Positions 24,393 to 39,364 of a stretch of DNA of 39,759 bases are shown one piece after another (position 1 is the first letter of the stretch; every line of letters begins with the position of its first letter). A model generated the notes under the pieces. That model saw only the letters and a program-made list of their open reading frames with translations. It was not told where the DNA came from and did no database searches. The position numbers and the translations under genes are program-made. This DNA is from a bacterium (GTDB lineage Bacteria; Cyanobacteriota; Vampirovibrionia; Gastranaerophilales; Gastranaerophilaceae), in assembly GCA_017433195.1 (NCBI GenBank), contig JAFRHR010000031.1:1-39759 (forward strand), given 5' to 3'.

Positions 24393-27300
24393 TTAAACCT
24401 GTTGTTCCCATGATGCGTTATCGAATATTGCAATCAGGTCGCCGATGTTTGCATCTCCACTTGTTAATGCAGCTTGAACATCATCATATCCTAATCCGCC
24501 GTTTGCATCTGTTAACCATGCAGCAACTGATTCTTTTAACTGATTCAGATTATTAAGTTTATAATTATCAGTCGAATATATTTTTTCAATTACGTCAAAG
24601 TTATTTATCTTAATTCCTGAAGTCGGTGCATCTCCCGATAAGGTCCATTCATTATAAGCCGTATTATTCACTATGTATAATTTGTTTTGCCCGTCAGCGA
24701 AAGTTCCATCTTTTTGAACATTAAATAAAGCTTTTATGTTTGCATGGTTATCTTTAATGTTTAATGTATCTGTACCTCCGGTATCGGAAATAGTTGTAGA
24801 ATTATTAAGCGAAGATACTATATAGGTATCATTTCCATTTTTTCCGTTCAATGTATCGTTTCCTTTGCCATATAATAAGTCAGCTCCGGAGGTACCGTTT
24901 ATGGTATCAGCGCCTGTTGTTCCGTAGTATGCATAATTCCCTGAATAAATTTCGTAGCCTTTTTCAGCAAGAGCTTCGCTTATTGATATTGTAGTTGCTG
25001 AAGTTGTATCCTGTATAAATATGCAGTCCCCAATATTTTCTTCAACTTTTTTGAAATAATTCTTAAAAGTGATGTAATTTTGGTTTCTGTATCTTAATAC
25101 TAAATCACTGCCTGTTGATGATGAACGAGTGAAGCTCATATCTGAATAAGAATTATTCTCAAAAATTATATTGGTATGTCCGCAGCCTTTCCAGTAAATA
25201 GTGTCTCGTCCTCCATTTTTAGCGATATTGGGATTAGGATCAGAACAGTCAATATAGATATCTGTAGATGATAATAAAGATGTAGAGGTGTGAACCGTAT
25301 CATTGTTATAGCCCAAATATATTTTAGGGTTATTATTCCCTGCGTATACAGTATTATTACCGGGTCCTGTATAATATATATCAGGACCGTCAATTCGGGC
25401 TGTATCTGATCCATGAATAGTATCATCCCCGGCATGCGTTAATACTAAATTAGAATAAAGATTATTAGATACGTATACGATATCGTCACCATCATATGCA
25501 CGTATTTCCTGTCTGATTTTCCCGTATGCGGTTATAATATCATTTTCTTCAGTTCCCCTTACATCAGCATCAGCACTTGTTATTATGTGTACCATATTAG
25601 AAGATTCATCATCGCCTGAATTTCCACCAGGATTTTCATTACCTCCTGGTGAATCATCTCCTCCTGAAGGATCATCATCGTCTGCCGGAGGCTCCAGCTC
25701 TTGATATAAATCACCTAAACATTTTATATTATTATCTATTTTGAAAATGATATGTTGGTCATTTAGATCTTTGTTTTTAAAATAATTAACGATATTAACT
25801 GTATTATTTTCTAAATCCCCTGTATATCCAACAAGTAAGTCATCACCATTTTTTAAGAATGCAATATTATTGAAATTTAAATTGTCCTCTAAAACAAATG
25901 TGTCATTATGATCACTTTGGTATCTTGTAAAGGTATTATTATTGCCTTCTTCAGCAATATACATGTGAATGGTGTTTTCACCAAGCCCTACGATAATTGT
26001 ATCATCGCCAAACCCTGTGTAGATGTCATCATATCCTCTGCCTGTATTAAGAATTTGTGCTTCAGTTTTGGTATTATCTCCGAGAATTGTTGATATATTA
26101 AATAAGTTTGATTCTTCTTCCGGTGTTACAACAATAAGGTCATCTGCTATTGCATTGTAATTATTATAATTTTGTATAGTTACGTTTCTTCTTATTTGTT
26201 CATCGTAATTTATACCTCTGTACAGAACGGCATCTTCCTCTCTTCTGTCAATTACTAAATCAGACAAACTTTCAGCCATTAGTAATCTGTCTTGTTTGTC
26301 TTGTCCTCCGCCATATTTATATGTATCATTTCCGTTATCATAGGTTGTAATATTCTGTATATTTTTTGTGTTTAAATTTTTGAAAATAATGGTATTATTC
26401 CCTATTCCTGAATGTACAGTGTCGCTGCCTGTTCCCATATATACGACATTATTCCCTGTTCCTAAATTTATTCTGTTATTTCCTGAATTTGCATATATAG
26501 TTTTATCCCCATTTCCTTTACGGATGAAGTCATTTCCGCTACCTGCCGTTATGGTATCATTACCTCCCTGCGGGTCTATATAGTCGTTTCCTCCGTATGC
26601 ATTTATTACTTCAGACTTTTCTGTAGCATAGATATAATCATTTCCTTCTGTGCCTGTTATGCCTTCGATATAGGTTTTTACTCCGCCTTTTTCATCAATA
26701 GCAACATCTAATGTTTTTTCTTCAGCACCCGGTGCTATTATATAAAAACTTGTTGCCATCGCTTCATTTCCTTCAAGGAAATAATCTTTAATCATTACAT
26801 AATTTTTATTATCTCTGTATCTTATTACTAAATTGTTGCTGTCAATTGCCCTTGTAAATACGATATCGTCATCTGTGTTATTAGTGAAAAATAATTTTGT
26901 AGAGTTATTACCCTGCCAATAGATTTTATCTTTTCCGCCTGCAGATTCCCCGTCAATATAAATGTATGTTGGAGATTCAGGAGATGTGTAAACTGAATCG
27001 TCTCCGTTCCCTAAATATATATGGGTGATTCCGCTGTTACCTGCGTAAACTATATTGTCTCCGGAACCTGTATAATATTTATCTTCGCCTGTTTCTCTTG
27101 CAACATTTGAGCCGTAAATAACATCATCTCCGTCTCCTGCATCAATTATACATTCCTGTGTGCTGTTTGATGCATAAATAATATCTTTGCCGCTTCCTCC
27201 GTTTACGGTTTGAGCGATGCTTCCGTTAGCTATAATGATATTACCTTCGGAATGAGTACTTTCTATTAGGGCAGCTTTACTGTCAATGATACGTCCTTCA

Positions 27301-28709
27301 TATTTTATTAATTGTTCTATATTAAAAATTCTTCCTTCGTTTTCAATACTTTTTACAGAAGAAATAGCATAACCGTCTTTGTCATAATAGTTTTTTATAG
27401 TGATTGCATCCTGTGCCACATCGTTTTCATCTAAATTATAATTTATGACGAGGTCTTTGTAAGATTTGCCTGCTCTTGGAACAAATTCTAATTTAGAAAC
27501 AGATGTATCATTAAATTTTATAATGTCATTACCTATGCCTGAAGTAATAGTGTCGAAGCCATCTCCCATGTTGAATACGAATGTGTTTGTTCCTGCTTCT
27601 CCGTATAACTGATCATCTCCAAGCCCGCCTGTAATTGTATCGTCTCCGGTTCCGCCTTTTAGTGTGTCATTATATTGAGATCCTATGACGAGATCATTAC
27701 CTGCCATACTGTTTATTGTTACACCTGCATTTGTCTTTGTGCCTTTAGCGTTAGCCGGTTTAACTAACTCACTTGCGTTTATATTGTCAGCAACGGCTGT
27801 ACCTGTATATTTTGTATTTATTTTTTGCGGAGATAACTGAAAATAATTTGCGGCATTAACTTCACCCAATACAGCTTCTTCTAAAACATTTATTTCTTTA
27901 GCTCCGTTTATTATTTTAAAAGTTGCACCCAAATCTTTTGATAGGTAATTTTTAATAGTAATTGTGCCTTCTTTTGTAGTAATTAGCAAATCACTTTTGT
28001 TTTTAACGGGTTTTGAAAATTCAAGTTTTTCGTTTTCAAGGTCTCCGTCAAATACTATTGTAAGGTTTTCGCCTTTTGTTAAAATAACGGTGTCATCACC
28101 AAAATTATCAGTTCTGTAGTATATTTTATTATTTCCGATGCCGCCTATAATTACGTCATTATTTCCTGATGCGATTATGGTATCATCTCCGTCAACCCCT
28201 TTTATGTTATCAATATATTTGCTTCCGTAAATACTGTCATCTCCAACCTTTCCGTCTATTTTTACGGTTATTTTTTTAGAAGTATTAGCGTCATATGCGC
28301 GTAAATCAATTACATCATCAAGTATAGAACCGTTAACAGCTGTTCCTTTTTGCGGTTCTGTAATAGGCCCGATTTTTGGAAGTGTAGCATCAGCCAATTC
28401 CCCTGCTTCGTGTGTGCATATGACTGTTCGAGTGGTTTTTCGCGTTGATTTATTTTTTGTTTCAGTGTATACAATGACAGGTAATTTTTGAATATCTTTA
28501 AAGTTCACAAAGGTTAAAAGAGTTTGTGTGTTATTATTAAGTATTACGGATAAAGTGCTTCCCGTTGCACTTGCAGTTTTTATAAGTGAGTTTAAGCTCT
28601 TTGTCCCAAAAAGCAGGTTTGTATCTTTGATTTCTATTTTTGTCACTCCGTTAAGGCTATAACTTTTTCTAAGTTTGCCTGTATCAATTTTTAGTATTTT
28701 TTCTGCCAT
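24393..28709 (-). CDS. Giant RTX-type calcium-binding repeat protein (probable type I secretion substrate)
   Basis: A 1438-residue acidic protein built of RTX nonapeptide-like repeats (GGxGxDxxx, for example GDDTITGGLGDDQLYG at about 356-371), interleaved with at least six copies of an 'xLVIxY...ITIKNYF'-type motif that matches the HCBP-related domain of haemolysin-type proteins. There is no N-terminal signal peptide; RTX proteins normally leave through type I secretion using an uncleaved C-terminal signal, and the last 100 residues here are non-repetitive. Two regions, about residues 491-700 and 1058-1280, are clearly related internal copies. A low-complexity Asp/Gly/Pro/Ser linker (about 1006-1036) lies between them. 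No enzymatic domain was seen, so surface layer, adhesion or biofilm roles are possible. No HlyB/HlyD/TolC genes are adjacent. GGAG lies 6 nt before the ATG. Confidence 0.9.
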   Translation of the reverse strand: MAEKILKIDTGKLRKSYSLNGVTKIEIKDTNLLFGTKSLNSLIKTASATGSTLSVILNNNTQTLLTFVNFKDIQKLPVIVYTETKNKSTRKTTRTVICTHEAGELADATLPKIGPITEPQKGTAVNGSILDDVIDLRAYDANTSKKITVKIDGKVGDDSIYGSKYIDNIKGVDGDDTIIASGNNDVIIGGIGNNKIYYRTDNFGDDTVILTKGENLTIVFDGDLENEKLEFSKPVKNKSDLLITTKEGTITIKNYLSKDLGATFKIINGAKEINVLEEAVLGEVNAANYFQLSPQKINTKYTGTAVADNINASELVKPANAKGTKTNAGVTINSMAGNDLVIGSQYNDTLKGGTGDDTITGGLGDDQLYGEAGTNTFVFNMGDGFDTITSGIGNDIIKFNDTSVSKLEFVPRAGKSYKDLVINYNLDENDVAQDAITIKNYYDKDGYAISSVKSIENEGRIFNIEQLIKYEGRIIDSKAALIESTHSEGNIIIANGSIAQTVNGGSGKDIIYASNSTQECIIDAGDGDDVIYGSNVARETGEDKYYTGSGDNIVYAGNSGITHIYLGNGDDSVYTSPESPTYIYIDGESAGGKDKIYWQGNNSTKLFFTNNTDDDIVFTRAIDSNNLVIRYRDNKNYVMIKDYFLEGNEAMATSFYIIAPGAEEKTLDVAIDEKGGVKTYIEGITGTEGNDYIYATEKSEVINAYGGNDYIDPQGGNDTITAGSGNDFIRKGNGDKTIYANSGNNRINLGTGNNVVYMGTGSDTVHSGIGNNTIIFKNLNTKNIQNITTYDNGNDTYKYGGGQDKQDRLLMAESLSDLVIDRREEDAVLYRGINYDEQIRRNVTIQNYNNYNAIADDLIVVTPEEESNLFNISTILGDNTKTEAQILNTGRGYDDIYTGFGDDTIIVGLGENTIHMYIAEEGNNNTFTRYQSDHNDTFVLEDNLNFNNIAFLKNGDDLLVGYTGDLENNTVNIVNYFKNKDLNDQHIIFKIDNNIKCLGDLYQELEPPADDDDPSGGDDSPGGNENPGGNSGDDESSNMVHIITSADADVRGTEENDIITAYGKIRQEIRAYDGDDIVYVSNNLYSNLVLTHAGDDTIHGSDTARIDGPDIYYTGPGNNTVYAGNNNPKIYLGYNNDTVHTSTSLLSSTDIYIDCSDPNPNIAKNGGRDTIYWKGCGHTNIIFENNSYSDMSFTRSSSTGSDLVLRYRNQNYITFKNYFKKVEENIGDCIFIQDTTSATTISISEALAEKGYEIYSGNYAYYGTTGADTINGTSGADLLYGKGNDTLNGKNGNDTYIVSSLNNSTTISDTGGTDTLNIKDNHANIKALFNVQKDGTFADGQNKLYIVNNTAYNEWTLSGDAPTSGIKINNFDVIEKIYSTDNYKLNNLNQLKESVAAWLTDANGGLGYDDVQAALTSGDANIGDLIAIFDNASWEQQV
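24870..25535 (-). repeat. Internal duplication in the RTX gene, downstream copy
   Basis: Encodes about residues 1058-1280, a block that repeats the order of motifs in 26610-27235: degenerate RTX, an 'xxYYTGxGxNxVYAGN' stretch, 'IYLGxxxDxVxTS', 'DxIYWxG', 'LVxRYRxxNY', a 'KxYF' segment and a terminal 'GTxGxDxI' RTX run. The copies are clearly divergent at protein level. Boundaries are approximate. Confidence 0.7.
26610..27235 (-). repeat. Internal duplication in the RTX gene, upstream copy
   Basis: Encodes about residues 491-700 and is collinear with the block at 24870-25535. Shared landmarks include YYTGSGDNIVYAGN versus YYTGPGNNTVYAGN, and LVIRYRDNKNY versus LVLRYRNQNY. Boundaries are approximate. 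Confidence 0.7.
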
Positions 28710-33978: not shown

Positions 33979-35055
33979 ATGATATCAGCAAACAACAAAA
34001 TTAATGGTTCTTTTTCTGCAAAGATTGACTTACCGCAAAATTCAGGTCATTCAGCAGATGAAACTCATTTGTCTAAGAATAATTTAAGGACAAATACAAG
34101 AAGATTTGTGCAAAAAACCGGAGCCGCTTTTATTGAATGTCCTCCGAGAGGGTTGAAGGGAGACCCGAACTTTGATTTTTATGATTTTCTGACACTCGGA
34201 ACTGTTCCGTACGCAGTAGGAAGTTTGACTTTTATGGCTTTGTTTAACGGAGTTGGAAGACATTTTGATTCTTTCTCTAAATCAATGGCTGCAAAAACAG
34301 GAAATAAGTTAGCGCTCGGCGTATTATTTTACGGAATTGCGAAGGGTTTATCAAAAAATCTGATAACAAAACCTGTAAAATGGGCAACAGGCGTTGATAC
34401 TGAAATGCCTTTTGAAAATGTAGTGTATTCAATCCCTACAAAACCGGGGGAAACTAATATAACAAAAATTCAACAGAGAAAAGTTTTTGACAGTGTTGAA
34501 TTTCCGAGATTTGATCTGCTGTATGACAACAGCGGCGACAAAAATCAATACATGAAATACTATGACAGTGTTGCAAAGAGATTGGGTGTTCATGATGATA
34601 TGTCTGCATCTGATGCAAAGATTAAACCTGTTATAAAAGATATTGTTTCAAGAACTACAACTGCAAATCATATTTCTTCATATTTATGGGCAGCAACAGG
34701 AGTTGCATATGCACTTCAGCAACCGTGGGACGGTTTCTTTAATGCATTATCTTCAAAGGCATGGAAACGTGCATCAGGAAATAGCGGTATGGCTGAAAAA
34801 TTAGCAAATGTAGGTTCTAATTTAAAGAGAATAGGTTCAGGATTTGCAGATTCAGCAATTGAAAGTGCAAAATCATTATGGAACGGAGCAAATGGTGCTA
34901 CAGGTTTGAAGAAACATGCAGGAAAAATTGTATTAGGTGTGGCTCTTGCATCCAGTGTGCTTGGTGCAACTAATGCGATTATTGGCGCAAGAAAGAAAGC
35001 TCAACAGCAAAAAGCTGAAGTTATAGACAGAACAAAACAGACAACGGTGATGTAA
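33979..35055 (+). CDS. Unknown membrane-associated protein, first gene of a three-gene cassette
   Basis: Not recognised. The 358-residue product begins MISANNKINGSFSAKIDL, with an F-S-A-K motif like other unknown proteins here. Hydrophobic segments lie at about 71-92, 111-124, 232-247 and 317-336; the Gly/Ala-rich character of the last (KIVLGVALASSVLGATNAII) suggests a membrane-inserting helix. There is no cleavable signal peptide. The order of a hydrophobic pair, a KxxxKxPxK-type basic region, a polar insert and a second hydrophobic stretch is loosely shared with the next protein, so the two may be distant paralogues. A weak CGGGAA precedes the ATG. The stop overlaps the next start by one base (TAATG). 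Confidence 0.72.
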   Translation: MISANNKINGSFSAKIDLPQNSGHSADETHLSKNNLRTNTRRFVQKTGAAFIECPPRGLKGDPNFDFYDFLTLGTVPYAVGSLTFMALFNGVGRHFDSFSKSMAAKTGNKLALGVLFYGIAKGLSKNLITKPVKWATGVDTEMPFENVVYSIPTKPGETNITKIQQRKVFDSVEFPRFDLLYDNSGDKNQYMKYYDSVAKRLGVHDDMSASDAKIKPVIKDIVSRTTTANHISSYLWAATGVAYALQQPWDGFFNALSSKAWKRASGNSGMAEKLANVGSNLKRIGSGFADSAIESAKSLWNGANGATGLKKHAGKIVLGVALASSVLGATNAIIGARKKAQQQKAEVIDRTKQTTVM

Positions 35056-37559
35056 TGTACGGTGATTTATTACAAGATTATTTAAACAGAACCCCTGGAC
35101 AACCAAAAGTTGCCCCGGACGTAAAAACGCCTTCATATACACCTGCTTTAAATAATCCCGGTAAAAAAGGATATTTAACCGTTACAGATACTATTGATAT
35201 TGAAAACAAAGTAAAACCTGATAAAGGTCAGGGACATTTAATAGATGATACACTTAAAGATAAAATCAAATACTTTGGTTTTGACAGAAAATATGATGCA
35301 AAAGCTTTAGTTGATGGTTATAACGGCAGAGCAAAAGATCATCAGTTGGGAAGATTAAATGATGTTGGACTGCTTGCAGGCGGAATTGCAATAGCAAGTT
35401 ATATTGCCGCATCTAAGCAAACTCCGAAAGCAAAAGTTATGGAATTTGTAGGTTTGACATCATTCCTGCTTGCAATGAAGGTATGGCCGAAAGTTGCAAT
35501 TGAAATTCCTGCAAAATTAGTTCACGGATTTAATGTTAATAAACAGTATATAGATGATCAGGGCAGAAAAAAATCTGTATTCCAGGATTCTCAGTATATT
35601 CCCTGGGATTTATATACAGGTGAAAAACCTGATGAAAATTTGAGTTTAATCGGCGATAAGATGGGAATTAAAAAAGATATTCCTAATAGAGAAGAAGTTG
35701 TAAAAGATCAGATGAGAAAAATTGCAACTCAAAATAATGCTCTCTGGATGTTATCAGCAGGTGTAGCAACTCCGGTACTCGGGGCATTAGGTGCTTGTGC
35801 CGCTGAAGGCGTTGTTGATGATGCTATTGAAAATATTAGAGATAAAAAAGCAAATACAAAAATCAGGGATATGTTCCGTTCTTTGGTCGGAGCTGAAGAT
35901 ACAAGAAAAGTTAATACAAAGACTGCTGATAAAATTTCAGGTTTACTTAGCGGTAAACAGGGTGCAGCAGTTGATGAAGCATTTATTGATTCATTAACTG
36001 AAGCAGTTTCGGGAGAAGTAAAAGATTCTAAATTACTTGAAGGGGTAAAGGCTGATTTGACTCAGATTTTGAGACCTTCAAACCCTGTATTAAATGGAGA
36101 AGCAAAAAACAAGATATTAAATAATTTATCTTCAGAATTAGAAAAAATGAATTTAGGCAACGGAATTAATCTTTCAGAAGTTATTCCGAATATGGAAGAA
36201 TTAGATGCAAGATTAAGTGAAGCATTCAGAACTCCGGTGGGAGAAACGATTACTGTTAATTCTGAAGCTAAAGCAAAACAAATATCAGATGTTTTAGAAA
36301 CTTTGATGCAGGATAAGTTGTATGACAAAGTGCCAAAAGAGGAAATAGAAAAAGTAACAGGTACTGTAAGAAGAGTTTCAGTCGGAGGACTTAAATCTTC
36401 ATCTGCAACACTTACTGCAGAAAGTTCAAAAACTATTTCTTCTTATCTTAATGAAGTTTTAAAATTCCAGGAGACACATAAAGGTCTTGACGAATGCATG
36501 AACGTCAAAATTGGTGCAAGAGAAGATTCTGTTCTTGCCAAGAACTGGAAAAGAGTTGAAAAAGCGCTGGCTAAGTCTTTAGGTATTACAGATAAGGAAT
36601 TGAAAGCCGCAAGATTAGGCAGAATAAATGCAGAAGAATTGTTTGCAAAAAAATTAGAACAGCTTGCTGCAGCAGGAAATGAAGAAAATTACAAGAAGGC
36701 ACTTGATAGTCTCGCAAGAGAAATGGATAAACTTAATATAAAACTTAACGGATCTGAAGCAGGTTCTTCTGTTATAGAAGATTTGTTCGGCGCTGTTGAT
36801 AAGAACTATGAGACTACAAAGAAGGGAATAAACAGAGTTGCAGGAGAAAGTAACGGAGCTCTCAGCAGATCAAAATTCCTTGAAGCTTTAACTGAAGAAC
36901 GTTTTGAAGGCGCAGGTTCTCATAAAAATAATTTTGTTACAGGCGCAAGAGAAAGAATAAATTCGGTTAAATCTACTTATAACAGAATTATTAACGCATT
37001 TGATGTCTTTAAAAGAGCAGGTGCGATTGATAAGGCAGATAAAGAAGCAGTTGATGTAGCAAATAAAGTTAAAGATGTTGTATTAAATGCTCATTCAAAA
37101 GATTTTTCCGAAAAATTCTTTACTGATAATAATTTGAGTTTCTACAAGAAAATTTATAACTTTATGTGTGGCGGAAAAGCAAAAGAAACGCAGGAAGTTT
37201 TGGATGGTGTATCCGCTGCAATGAATGGTTCTTTAGATGAATACAGAAAAAAACTTTATAATATAGTCGGAAACGATGCAAGTAAGATTAAAACTAAACA
37301 CACTGTTACGGAAAATGCTGAAAAATTATACAGAGAAGGCGGCAGCGTATATTCAAAAGGTGAAGCTACCGCAAACAAAATATTTAATTCTATAGGTAAA
37401 GCACCTTCTGAGTTTTTAAAGGATTTATCTCAAAAACAATATAATTCAAATAAATGGTTAAGAACATTTGGTGCTATCGGTGCAGGTGTTTTTGCAATTA
37501 CGACAGCAGCACAGTTTGCATTCGGCGGAAAAGACGATGCAATAAAGGAGGTTAAATAA
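35055..37559 (+). CDS. Large unknown membrane-associated helical protein, second gene of the cassette
   Basis: Not recognised. The 834-residue product has hydrophobic segments near 104-140 (LLAGGIAIASYIAA and FVGLTSFLLAM) and 232-252 (ALWMLSAGVATPVLGALGAC), then about 550 residues of charged, mostly helical sequence with many Lys, Glu and Asn. A final hydrophobic segment (about 806-826, FGAIGAGVFAITTAAQFAFGG) is just before the C-terminus. It has no signal peptide and no enzymatic motif. Terminal hydrophobic anchors around a long helical middle suggest a scaffold or membrane-tethering protein, but that is inference. It is coupled by TAATG overlaps to both neighbours, so the three proteins are probably made in step. 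Confidence 0.72.
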   Translation: MYGDLLQDYLNRTPGQPKVAPDVKTPSYTPALNNPGKKGYLTVTDTIDIENKVKPDKGQGHLIDDTLKDKIKYFGFDRKYDAKALVDGYNGRAKDHQLGRLNDVGLLAGGIAIASYIAASKQTPKAKVMEFVGLTSFLLAMKVWPKVAIEIPAKLVHGFNVNKQYIDDQGRKKSVFQDSQYIPWDLYTGEKPDENLSLIGDKMGIKKDIPNREEVVKDQMRKIATQNNALWMLSAGVATPVLGALGACAAEGVVDDAIENIRDKKANTKIRDMFRSLVGAEDTRKVNTKTADKISGLLSGKQGAAVDEAFIDSLTEAVSGEVKDSKLLEGVKADLTQILRPSNPVLNGEAKNKILNNLSSELEKMNLGNGINLSEVIPNMEELDARLSEAFRTPVGETITVNSEAKAKQISDVLETLMQDKLYDKVPKEEIEKVTGTVRRVSVGGLKSSSATLTAESSKTISSYLNEVLKFQETHKGLDECMNVKIGAREDSVLAKNWKRVEKALAKSLGITDKELKAARLGRINAEELFAKKLEQLAAAGNEENYKKALDSLAREMDKLNIKLNGSEAGSSVIEDLFGAVDKNYETTKKGINRVAGESNGALSRSKFLEALTEERFEGAGSHKNNFVTGARERINSVKSTYNRIINAFDVFKRAGAIDKADKEAVDVANKVKDVVLNAHSKDFSEKFFTDNNLSFYKKIYNFMCGGKAKETQEVLDGVSAAMNGSLDEYRKKLYNIVGNDASKIKTKHTVTENAEKLYREGGSVYSKGEATANKIFNSIGKAPSEFLKDLSQKQYNSNKWLRTFGAIGAGVFAITTAAQFAFGGKDDAIKEVK

Positions 37560-39364
37560 TGATTAAGTCTGTAGGTATATCGAATTTAACTTCTTTCAGT
37601 GCCGATTCTGCACAGGGTAAGCAAGCCCAAAAATTTGATTTGAGCGGATTAGACAGCAATAAAAATATGATTATGCAATATCTTAATGCGACATCTGTTG
37701 TAAATCAGGCAGCAGTTACTGCTCCTCAGGTTCAAAATGTACAGAATGCTCCTGCTCAGACAGTTTCAAATTATAAAAATAATTTAAAATCTATGATAAA
37801 CAATAATGAATCGGTAATTTTGGCAATAATTCCGAGAACTTTCAACGCAAAAGATGCAGACGGAAATGAAAAAATCGATTCTAATAAAGGTGAACAAAAC
37901 AGTACATTCTTAAGTTGTATTGAAAGACTTGATGAAGTAAAACAAAATGGTTTTAATACATTGCACCTTCTTCCTATTCACCAGCCGGGTGATGAAAATG
38001 CAATGGGAACAGCAGGTTCAGTTTATGCACCGAAAGAAATAGTCGGTGCAGACGGAAAGATTGCAATTGATCCTGCATTAATCGATAAAAACGATCCGAG
38101 AAGTCCGCAGGAACAGTTCAAAGCATTTATCGATGCTTGTCACGAAAGAAACATCAAGGTAATGATTGATTTACCGAGCTGCGCATCTTGTGATTTGTAC
38201 GATAACGAACCTGAATTAATGGCAAGAACAAGATTTGGGGTTGAAAAAACTCCTCAGGGATGGGCAGATATCAGAATGTTCCAGCCTTGGGAAGATGAAA
38301 GCAAGAGAACATTAAATCCGAAACTTTTGGAAATGCATAAACAATTCGTTGATAATTGTATCGAATTAGGAATTGACGGAATCAGAGCCGATGTAGCCAG
38401 AGCGAAACCGACTGAATTCTGGAGTGTTTTAATTCCTTATTCTCATCAGAAGGACAAAGAATTTGCATGGTTAGGAGAAACATATACTTATGAATGTGCA
38501 TCACCTCAGGTAAATATGCCTTATGACAGACCGAAAGATTCTTTAAAAGCGGGATTTGATTCATATTACGGACAATATCACATTTTCCACGAATGGCAGA
38601 ATGCAAAAGAATTTAATACCTATGTAAAAGAAAATCTTGCAATGACTAAAGAAAACGGTTTGGCAGGAAAATCATTAATCGGTTCTTTCTCAACTCACGA
38701 TGACGTATCTCCGATGGTACACGGCGGTGCTGATTACTGCAATATGACAACAGTTATTCAGGCAACAATTCCGCAATGTAATCCTTATTTTGTAGATGGT
38801 TATCAATCAGGTGATTATTACAAATACAATTACGCTAATAAATCTTACGATAAGAAAAACGGTCAGGAAATTAATCAGGAAAAAGACGAAAACGGTAAAA
38901 ACAATGTAATGACCGTTCACCCATACAAACTTGATATCTTTAATTTATCAAGAAAACCGGGTGGTGATGAACCTGAAATCGGACAGTTTGCTCAAAAAAC
39001 TTTTGAAATGAGAAATAACTATAAAGATGTTATTACTAAGGGTTCTTATATAGAATTAGAGAAAAAAGCAGACAAGAATGATCAGGTAATTGCGTATGCA
39101 AGACATCTTAACGGAAAGACTCTTCTCGTAGTTGCAAACAAAGATGTAAACTGCCCGTCATCTGCTGTAATTTCAGTTCCTACATTGAAAGCTACTCAAA
39201 AGTTAAACAATTTAGTTCCTAATTACGGTGAAAAGAGCGAATTGCAGGTTGCAGACGGCGAATTGAGAGTTGAACTCGGCAAAGCAAGAGCAATGGTATT
39301 TGAAATCGATACCCCAAATATCGAACAAAATGCTCAGGGACACGTTTTTAAAGAAAATATGTAA
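37559..39364 (+). CDS. GH13 alpha-amylase-family protein, GlgE-like, with divergent region I
   Basis: A 601-residue protein of the alpha-amylase clan. Residues 1-20 (MIKSVGISNLTSFSADSAQG) carry an F-S-A motif instead of a signal peptide. The barrel begins near 87. The catalytic triad is visible: nucleophile D278 (GIDGIRADVA), acid/base E307 (WLGETYT) and D381 (STHDD). Region I, normally DxxxNH, reads DLPSCA at 204-209, so Asn and His are missing; the maltosyltransferase GlgE also lacks NH there (LALQCS). IRADVARAKPTEFW resembles the GlgE region too. A DADGNEKID stretch (99-107) could bind calcium. It is shorter than GlgE and lacks its N-terminal domain, so the reaction (transferase, hydrolase or none) is open. 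It is the third gene of a coupled cassette. Confidence 0.8.
   Translation: MIKSVGISNLTSFSADSAQGKQAQKFDLSGLDSNKNMIMQYLNATSVVNQAAVTAPQVQNVQNAPAQTVSNYKNNLKSMINNNESVILAIIPRTFNAKDADGNEKIDSNKGEQNSTFLSCIERLDEVKQNGFNTLHLLPIHQPGDENAMGTAGSVYAPKEIVGADGKIAIDPALIDKNDPRSPQEQFKAFIDACHERNIKVMIDLPSCASCDLYDNEPELMARTRFGVEKTPQGWADIRMFQPWEDESKRTLNPKLLEMHKQFVDNCIELGIDGIRADVARAKPTEFWSVLIPYSHQKDKEFAWLGETYTYECASPQVNMPYDRPKDSLKAGFDSYYGQYHIFHEWQNAKEFNTYVKENLAMTKENGLAGKSLIGSFSTHDDVSPMVHGGADYCNMTTVIQATIPQCNPYFVDGYQSGDYYKYNYANKSYDKKNGQEINQEKDENGKNNVMTVHPYKLDIFNLSRKPGGDEPEIGQFAQKTFEMRNNYKDVITKGSYIELEKKADKNDQVIAYARHLNGKTLLVVANKDVNCPSSAVISVPTLKATQKLNNLVPNYGEKSELQVADGELRVELGKARAMVFEIDTPNIEQNAQGHVFKENM

Follow-up and report, generated by a model that had tools for sequence, protein, structure and literature searches.

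A conserved cassette of two new paralogous four-helix families and a divergent GH13 enzyme in Gastranaerophilaceae: a putative membrane-tethered alpha-glucan system

Close to one end of a contig from a bacterium of the Gastranaerophilaceae (JAFRHR010000031.1, 39,759 nucleotides, the whole of which is called the window here), three genes, named P1, P2 and P3, follow each other so tightly that the question arises whether they form one system, and what such a system would do. The first-pass annotation, made from the sequence alone, had described them as a coupled unit of two unrecognised membrane-associated proteins and a GlgE-like protein of glycoside hydrolase family 13 (GH13). In the present analysis, P1-P2-P3 is a conserved gene unit in which P1 is paralogous to P2, some relatives have P2 and P3 as a fusion, the cassette occurs jointly with a fourth gene, P4, the catalytic residues of P3 are retained, and genes of sugar metabolism neighbour the cassette in relatives. 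We regard it as moderately probable that P1 to P4 make up a membrane-tethered cytoplasmic complex that processes alpha-glucan or maltodextrin. We give a considerably higher probability to the broader claim, that the cassette genes belong to one functional alpha-glucan-related system, than to the details of the mechanism.

The layout of the cassette is as follows.

33979-35055, + strand: P1, new family, predicted to be membrane-associated and to have four helices, 358 aa (AlphaFold2 (AF2), hydropathy, family searches)
35055-37559, + strand: P2, paralogue of P1, 834 aa (hhalign, hidden Markov model (HMM), AF2, hydropathy)
37559-39364, + strand: P3, divergent GH13 protein without signal peptide, 601 aa
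35053-35057, + strand: TAATG stop/start overlap of P1 and P2
37557-37561, + strand: TAATG stop/start overlap of P2 and P3
37544-37551, + strand: strong Shine-Dalgarno sequence of P3's own, AAAGGAGG

TAATG is read at each junction, as the first-pass annotation had stated for the exact one-nucleotide overlaps. No signal peptide was seen by inspection on P1, P2, P3 or P4, which agrees with the earlier reading of P1 and P2. Scanning the window for Rfam families and tRNA genes gave no match.

The cassette was followed through a family sample of 146 genomes from 41 genera; genome-wide statements on the window's own genome rest on searches and extracted stretches. P1 and P2 are both present in the same 136 genomes and both missing from the same 10, in which the only P3-related gene is a GH13 paralogue of about 510 aa, about 40% identical. 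The order P1-P2-P3 on one strand was found in all 58 family loci that are intact at contig ends (60 extracted), which speaks against a chance arrangement. It is identical in the 69 complete cassettes among 80 named loci that were gathered separately, partly from the same genomes. In public records, these named relatives are listed as Candidatus Gastranaerophilales or as comparable metagenome-assembled genomes labelled as Cyanobacteria, which bears out the taxonomic guess of the first-pass annotation. The gaps in the 58 loci range from −32 to +33 nt between P1 and P2 and from −127 to +56 nt between P2 and P3, the overlaps being overstated because the starts of the open reading frames (ORFs) were called mechanically. 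Spacings of +1, −1 and −4 nt are all seen in relatives and the exact 1-nt overlap is common; the conserved feature is the tight packing, not the exact overlap.

A profile search with P1 over 240 genomes of the class gave matches in family f2, of the same taxonomic order, and in families f4 and f10, outside that order. A phylum-wide search over a sample of 339 genomes extended this by one family, f15, of the window's order; in that sample, all matches lay within the order. Outside the family, the order P1-P2-P3 is kept in seven of the seven loci examined, and in two of these P2 and P3 are fused into a single ORF (1030 aa and 986 aa). The two fusions come from different genera of another order of the class, one of them in a single-contig genome, and in their architecture the GH13 domain stands immediately after the last hydrophobic helix of P2. 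The first-pass annotation had proposed comparing gene order across Gastranaerophilales; every complete locus examined has P1-P2-P3, and its claim that the three genes are one unit is supported by the conserved order, the joint presence and loss, and the fusion of P2 with P3 in some relatives. The unit varies little between relatives from the gut and from the environment.

No known family accommodates P1 and P2, which are paralogues of each other. Residues 38-271 of P1 align to residues 42-244 of P2 (hhalign, probability 94, E 1.4e-7), and the P2 HMM picks up distant members of the P1 family (best 2.6e-10), which confirms the distant paralogy that had been suspected. Searches against Pfam and NCBIfam gave nothing significant for either protein, sequence searches of the PDB gave no relative, and the AF2 models (P1, pLDDT 81.8, pTM 0.78; P2, pLDDT 80.6, pTM 0.69) matched no PDB fold, the best hits having E 0.025 (probability 0.15) and 0.22. 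A weak PHROGs match of P1 to a tape-measure protein (E 6.6e-4) covers a hydrophobic stretch and was judged spurious. The earlier impression that both proteins lie outside recognised families therefore holds across Pfam, NCBIfam, PADLOC, PHROGs, and PDB sequences and folds. A phage or defence origin of the cassette was considered and rejected, since PADLOC has no match in the cassette proteins, the PHROGs match is spurious and the pattern is class-wide.

Each protein has four hydrophobic segments in the same pattern, located as listed below; the helices rest on the AF2 models and hydropathy, and the long helical region on the AF2 model.

34189-34245, + strand: P1 hydrophobic helix 1, residues 71-89
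34309-34365, + strand: P1 hydrophobic helix 2, residues 111-129
34660-34716, + strand: P1 hydrophobic helix 3, residues about 228-246 (family mean)
34927-34983, + strand: P1 hydrophobic helix 4, residues 317-335
35355-35411, + strand: P2 hydrophobic helix 1, residues 101-119
35445-35501, + strand: P2 hydrophobic helix 2, residues 131-149
35739-35795, + strand: P2 hydrophobic helix 3, residues 229-247
35802-37454, + strand: P2 long helical region between helices 3 and 4, about 550 residues (about 250-800)
37467-37523, + strand: P2 hydrophobic helix 4, residues 805-823, the helix that directly precedes the GH13 domain in the fusions of relatives

P3 carries the following features.

37559-37777, + strand: variable N-terminal tail, residues 1-73, with an FSA tag (13-15) and a short helix MIMQYL (37-42)
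38390-38392, + strand: codon of the catalytic nucleophile D278, invariant
38477-38479, + strand: codon of the acid/base E307, invariant
38699-38701, + strand: codon of the third acid D381, invariant

The full GH13 triad noted at first reading is confirmed, as D278, E307 and D381 (conserved regions II, III and IV) are unchanged in an alignment of 39 P3 homologues. In Pfam and NCBIfam, P3 meets only models of the GH13 type, all below their curated cut-offs, and the window's protein misses Pfam Alpha-amylase. Against solved GH13 enzymes, the family profile of P3 scores E 1.1e-24 with 1gju, 3.8e-23 with 4gkl and 2.7e-18 with 3dhu; the closest structural relatives are thus the maltosyltransferase of T. 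maritima and amylases. The maltosyltransferase (1gju/1gjw), the best relative, has the GH13 catalytic regions in common with P3; however, it is stand-alone as far as known, without membrane partners, whereas P3 has a long variable N-terminal tail. The window's genome also encodes a paralogue of P3 (L181 7202-8722, − strand; contig C17 of genome G000), an exported GH13 protein with the signal peptide MKKFIILLIFLLVSSQAFA. Because this paralogue carries a signal peptide and P3 has none, P3 probably works in the cytoplasm.

A conserved fourth gene was first looked for by clustering the flanks of 140 loci, which gave only clade-specific housekeeping neighbours (uppP, queD, kdsC and panD); P4 was found through distant loci. 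In family f4, the cassette is adjoined by a conserved gene of about 1280-1490 aa, P4, and by a sugar transporter whose best score is against sucrose-type GPH symporters, below the family cut-off. P4 is a second GH13 protein: it scores just above the cut-off of Pfam Alpha-amylase, and its WRIDAAKD, IIAELTDF and SHDYS regions are conserved. Its family profile best matches the structures of neopullulanase/cyclomaltodextrinase GH13 enzymes (1ea9, E 2e-28), which, with 1sma, are its closest structural relatives; P4 differs from them in its length, which exceeds theirs more than twofold, in its long insertions and in an F-x-G tag at the N-terminus. Enzymes of this type act on maltodextrins.

P4 occurs in 134 of the 146 family genomes. 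P4 and the cassette are both present in 133 and both absent in 9, with P4 alone in 1 and the cassette alone in 3 (Fisher p 3e-11, uncorrected for phylogeny). By coordinate comparison, P3 has P4 immediately behind it on its own strand in 23 genomes, which belong to 8 genera. The same succession of P3 and P4 is seen in two other families of the order (L270 and L279); in L270, P4 is followed in turn by a TreZ/GlgB-like GH13 gene. In the window's genome, P4 lies on another contig, C31 (L260:4895-9442, minus strand), and the span marked by the first-pass annotation leaves out this fourth component. Transporter-like proteins adjoin P4 in G296 and GlgA in G005. A giant GT5 enzyme of the A6 type was not found outside f4 and f10 at E 1e-20 and for this reason is not counted in the system. 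In G008 (L272 8287-9822, − strand), an exported GH13 protein similar to the P3 paralogue adjoins P4 on the opposite strand.

On this basis, P1 and P2 would be inserted in the cytoplasmic membrane and form a platform there, and P2 together with the flexible N-terminal tail of P3 would hold P3 at the cytoplasmic face; in some lineages P3 would instead be fused to the last helix of P2. P3 would be a retaining GH13 enzyme on alpha-1,4-glucan or malto-oligosaccharides, of the transferase or amylase type and not a maltose-1-phosphate enzyme. P4, as a giant GH13 enzyme of the neopullulanase/cyclomaltodextrinase type, would be part of the same system, and malto-oligosaccharides may be supplied through the GPH symporter or from stored glucan. 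The membrane topology and sidedness, the physical complex, and the substrate, the reaction and its direction are what we infer from these features. The glycogen or polysaccharide body and the surface glycan system that had been offered as possible functions both stay candidates; the neighbouring genes favour cytoplasmic handling of maltodextrin or alpha-glucan.

Several points weigh against such a complex. The hydropathy of the P1 and P2 segments is moderate (Kyte-Doolittle 1.0-2.0), so that the helices are possibly buried and not spanning, and the charges flanking helix 4 give no call on sidedness. G044 and G051, near-complete genomes with the operon, have no P4 match. The losses of the cassette cluster in three genera (g12, g16 and g19), which means few independent loss events. 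A full-length synthase of the GlgA type is widespread in relatives, including G011; since G011 has no cassette and keeps GlgA, classical glycogen synthesis does not need the cassette.

A different function would be the making or export of a cell-surface alpha-glucan, with P1 and P2 as the membrane export part and P3 and P4 trimming or polymerising the chain. The combination of two multi-helix proteins with GH13 enzymes would suit it, as would the fusions that set the enzyme beside the last helix of P2, a 980-aa GT5-like enzyme that adjoins the cassette in L175 and L179, and uppP, which lies upstream of the cassette in 65 of the 140 loci. However, P1 and P2 match no transporter in sequence or fold, the enzymes lack signal peptides, and the uppP/queD/kdsC and panD neighbours depend on the clade and resemble housekeeping genes. 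Surface export is judged unlikely.

Short motifs at the N-termini bear on two further possibilities. Those of P1 and P2 in the window are given here, and those of P3 lie in its tail as listed above.

34012-34020, + strand: P1 N-terminal F-x-[GA] tag, FSA, residues 12-14
35067-35084, + strand: P2 N-terminal short helix LLQDYL, residues 5-10 (motif count; low-confidence helix 4-12 in AF2)

The tag F-x-[GA] falls within the first 60 residues in 27 of 29 P4 proteins, the N-termini of which are otherwise diverse (5.8 in shuffles), in 25 of 61 P1 tails (3.9 in shuffles) and in 12 of 59 P3 tails (3.6 in shuffles); only 1 of 59 P2 proteins has it. Close to the N-terminus, P2 (23 of 59) and P3 (31 of 59) alone have a short motif that resembles a helix, where about 0.5 is expected from shuffles. 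Both patterns were picked after viewing the sequences, which are themselves related by descent; we therefore treat the tag as a lead. The motifs suggest docking or sorting peptides.

In GT5-like enzymes, SF[GKA]G precedes the catalytic domain. Long proteins of this kind (starch-synthase-like, 750-1070 aa) carry it directly before that domain, and canonical GlgA, also present in relatives, is without it. They are located as follows.

L290 1142-4096, − strand: long tagged GT5 protein
L293 2599-4860, + strand: long tagged GT5 protein
L294 2691-5903, + strand: long tagged GT5 protein
L295 2937-5450, + strand: long tagged GT5 protein

A general survey of tags covered two genome samples, G072 and G031 (L182-L221). 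A first pattern gave 6 matches against 0-5, a modest excess, and a stricter one gave a clearer excess, 13 of 576 against 3 in six control windows; these patterns, too, were picked after viewing the sequences. About 2% of proteins in the family, of unrelated types, carry the form [IVQ][NS]F[KTGS][GAS] behind a variable head of a few residues, e.g., ORFs starting MEINQNYLNRINFKGN and MKITPITIGKQSFGAN; it is possibly a general sorting signal of the lineage.

If the peptides serve docking, the membrane platform of the two new paralogues may bind several glucan enzymes, namely P3, P4, the TreZ/GlgB-like GH13 protein and the GT5-like synthases, by the F-x-[GA] tag and the P2/P3 helix. This would be a categorically new alpha-glucan machine, possibly ancestral in Vampirovibrionia; we hold it as a tentative and rather doubtful extension of the membrane-tethered complex. 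If they instead serve sorting, P1 and P2 might form the coat, or determine the shape, of a glucan granule inside the cell or of an internal membrane compartment in which P3 and P4 reside. The counts of the tag and of the helix motif over their shuffled levels and the tagged GT5-like synthases are consistent with a granule or compartment; however, the tag is also present on unrelated proteins, P2 lacks it, and the limits on the patterns stated above apply here as well. We consider such a granule or compartment improbable.

It is quite unlikely that the helices are buried and that P1 and P2 serve the GH13 enzymes as soluble subunits with a scaffolding or regulatory role. The moderate hydropathy and the long continuous helices of the AF2 models would fit such subunits, but the four-segment pattern is the same in P1 and P2 and largely kept in distant relatives, and the segments are rich in Gly/Ala with K/R flanks.

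The weakest alternative is that P3 is a GlgE, the maltose-1-phosphate maltosyltransferase, lengthening glycogen at the membrane; it is highly improbable, since the ligands of maltose-1-phosphate are replaced and the maltokinase N-cap is absent. In GlgE of S. coelicolor, the phosphate of maltose-1-phosphate is bound by N352, K355, Y357 and N395 (PMC4526890), and the residues aligned to these in P3 are K230, Q233, W235 and V279, so that all four are replaced. The N-cap (Mak_N_cap, PF18085) was found in none of the 25 genomes searched, with a positive control in C. glutamicum, in a search that would miss a maltokinase without an N-cap. P3 does match GlgE structures (E 4e-15), in line with the first-pass impression, though more weakly than it matches the T. 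maritima maltosyltransferase and amylases, and no family of NCBIfam or Pfam scores above its cut-off. P3 shares with GlgE (GH13_3) the GH13 domain, the catalytic Asp and Glu, and KPxxFW after the nucleophile; the match stops short of the N-terminal 230-250 residues of GlgE. The earlier label "GlgE-like" thus stands as GH13 similarity and not as function. A Cys in region I of P3 was taken up as a GlgE-like feature and dropped, as the alignment sets it opposite Q324 of GlgE.

The P3 and P4 enzymes are of a known kind, GH13 alpha-glucan enzymes, whereas the P1 and P2 families and their pairing with such enzymes are not described in any of the resources searched. The search of the open-access literature gave only general statements on the fermentation of starch and glycogen (PMC3787301, PMC4040986). 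Starch utilisation systems of the Sus type and amylosomes, in which starch enzymes are gathered at a membrane or scaffold, may offer an analogy in the way of working; the enzymes there are exported, whereas those of the cassette have no export signals and P1 and P2 are unrelated to known families. No SusC/SusD, dockerin or cohesin domain was found in P1-P3 in the Pfam and NCBIfam scans.

The Gastranaerophilaceae are common in the gut, are neighbours of the Cyanobacteria and have for the most part not been cultured. The cassette is near-universal in the family and has orthologues in another order, which makes it a probable element of their core biology. A membrane-tethered complex, if it exists, would mean that intracellular alpha-glucan enzymes are organised at the membrane; it would assign a role to two core genes annotated as "hypothetical" and single out P1, P2, P3 and P4 as specific partners.

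Other features of the window lie around the cassette. Just upstream of P1 (32421-33762), a repressor-like ORF (helix-turn-helix and S24-like, by eye) and a Lin1244-like ORF (sub-threshold) are perhaps the remnant of a mobile element. A 1438-aa protein at 24393-28709 (− strand) has calcium-binding repeats of the RTX type (Pfam HemolysinCabind, E 6e-27) and is possibly secreted or located at the surface. Downstream of P3, the contig end (39426-39759) consists of direct repeats of the "GTCATTCTGAACTTGTTTCAGAATCT" type, with a 57-nt unit and 98% identity.

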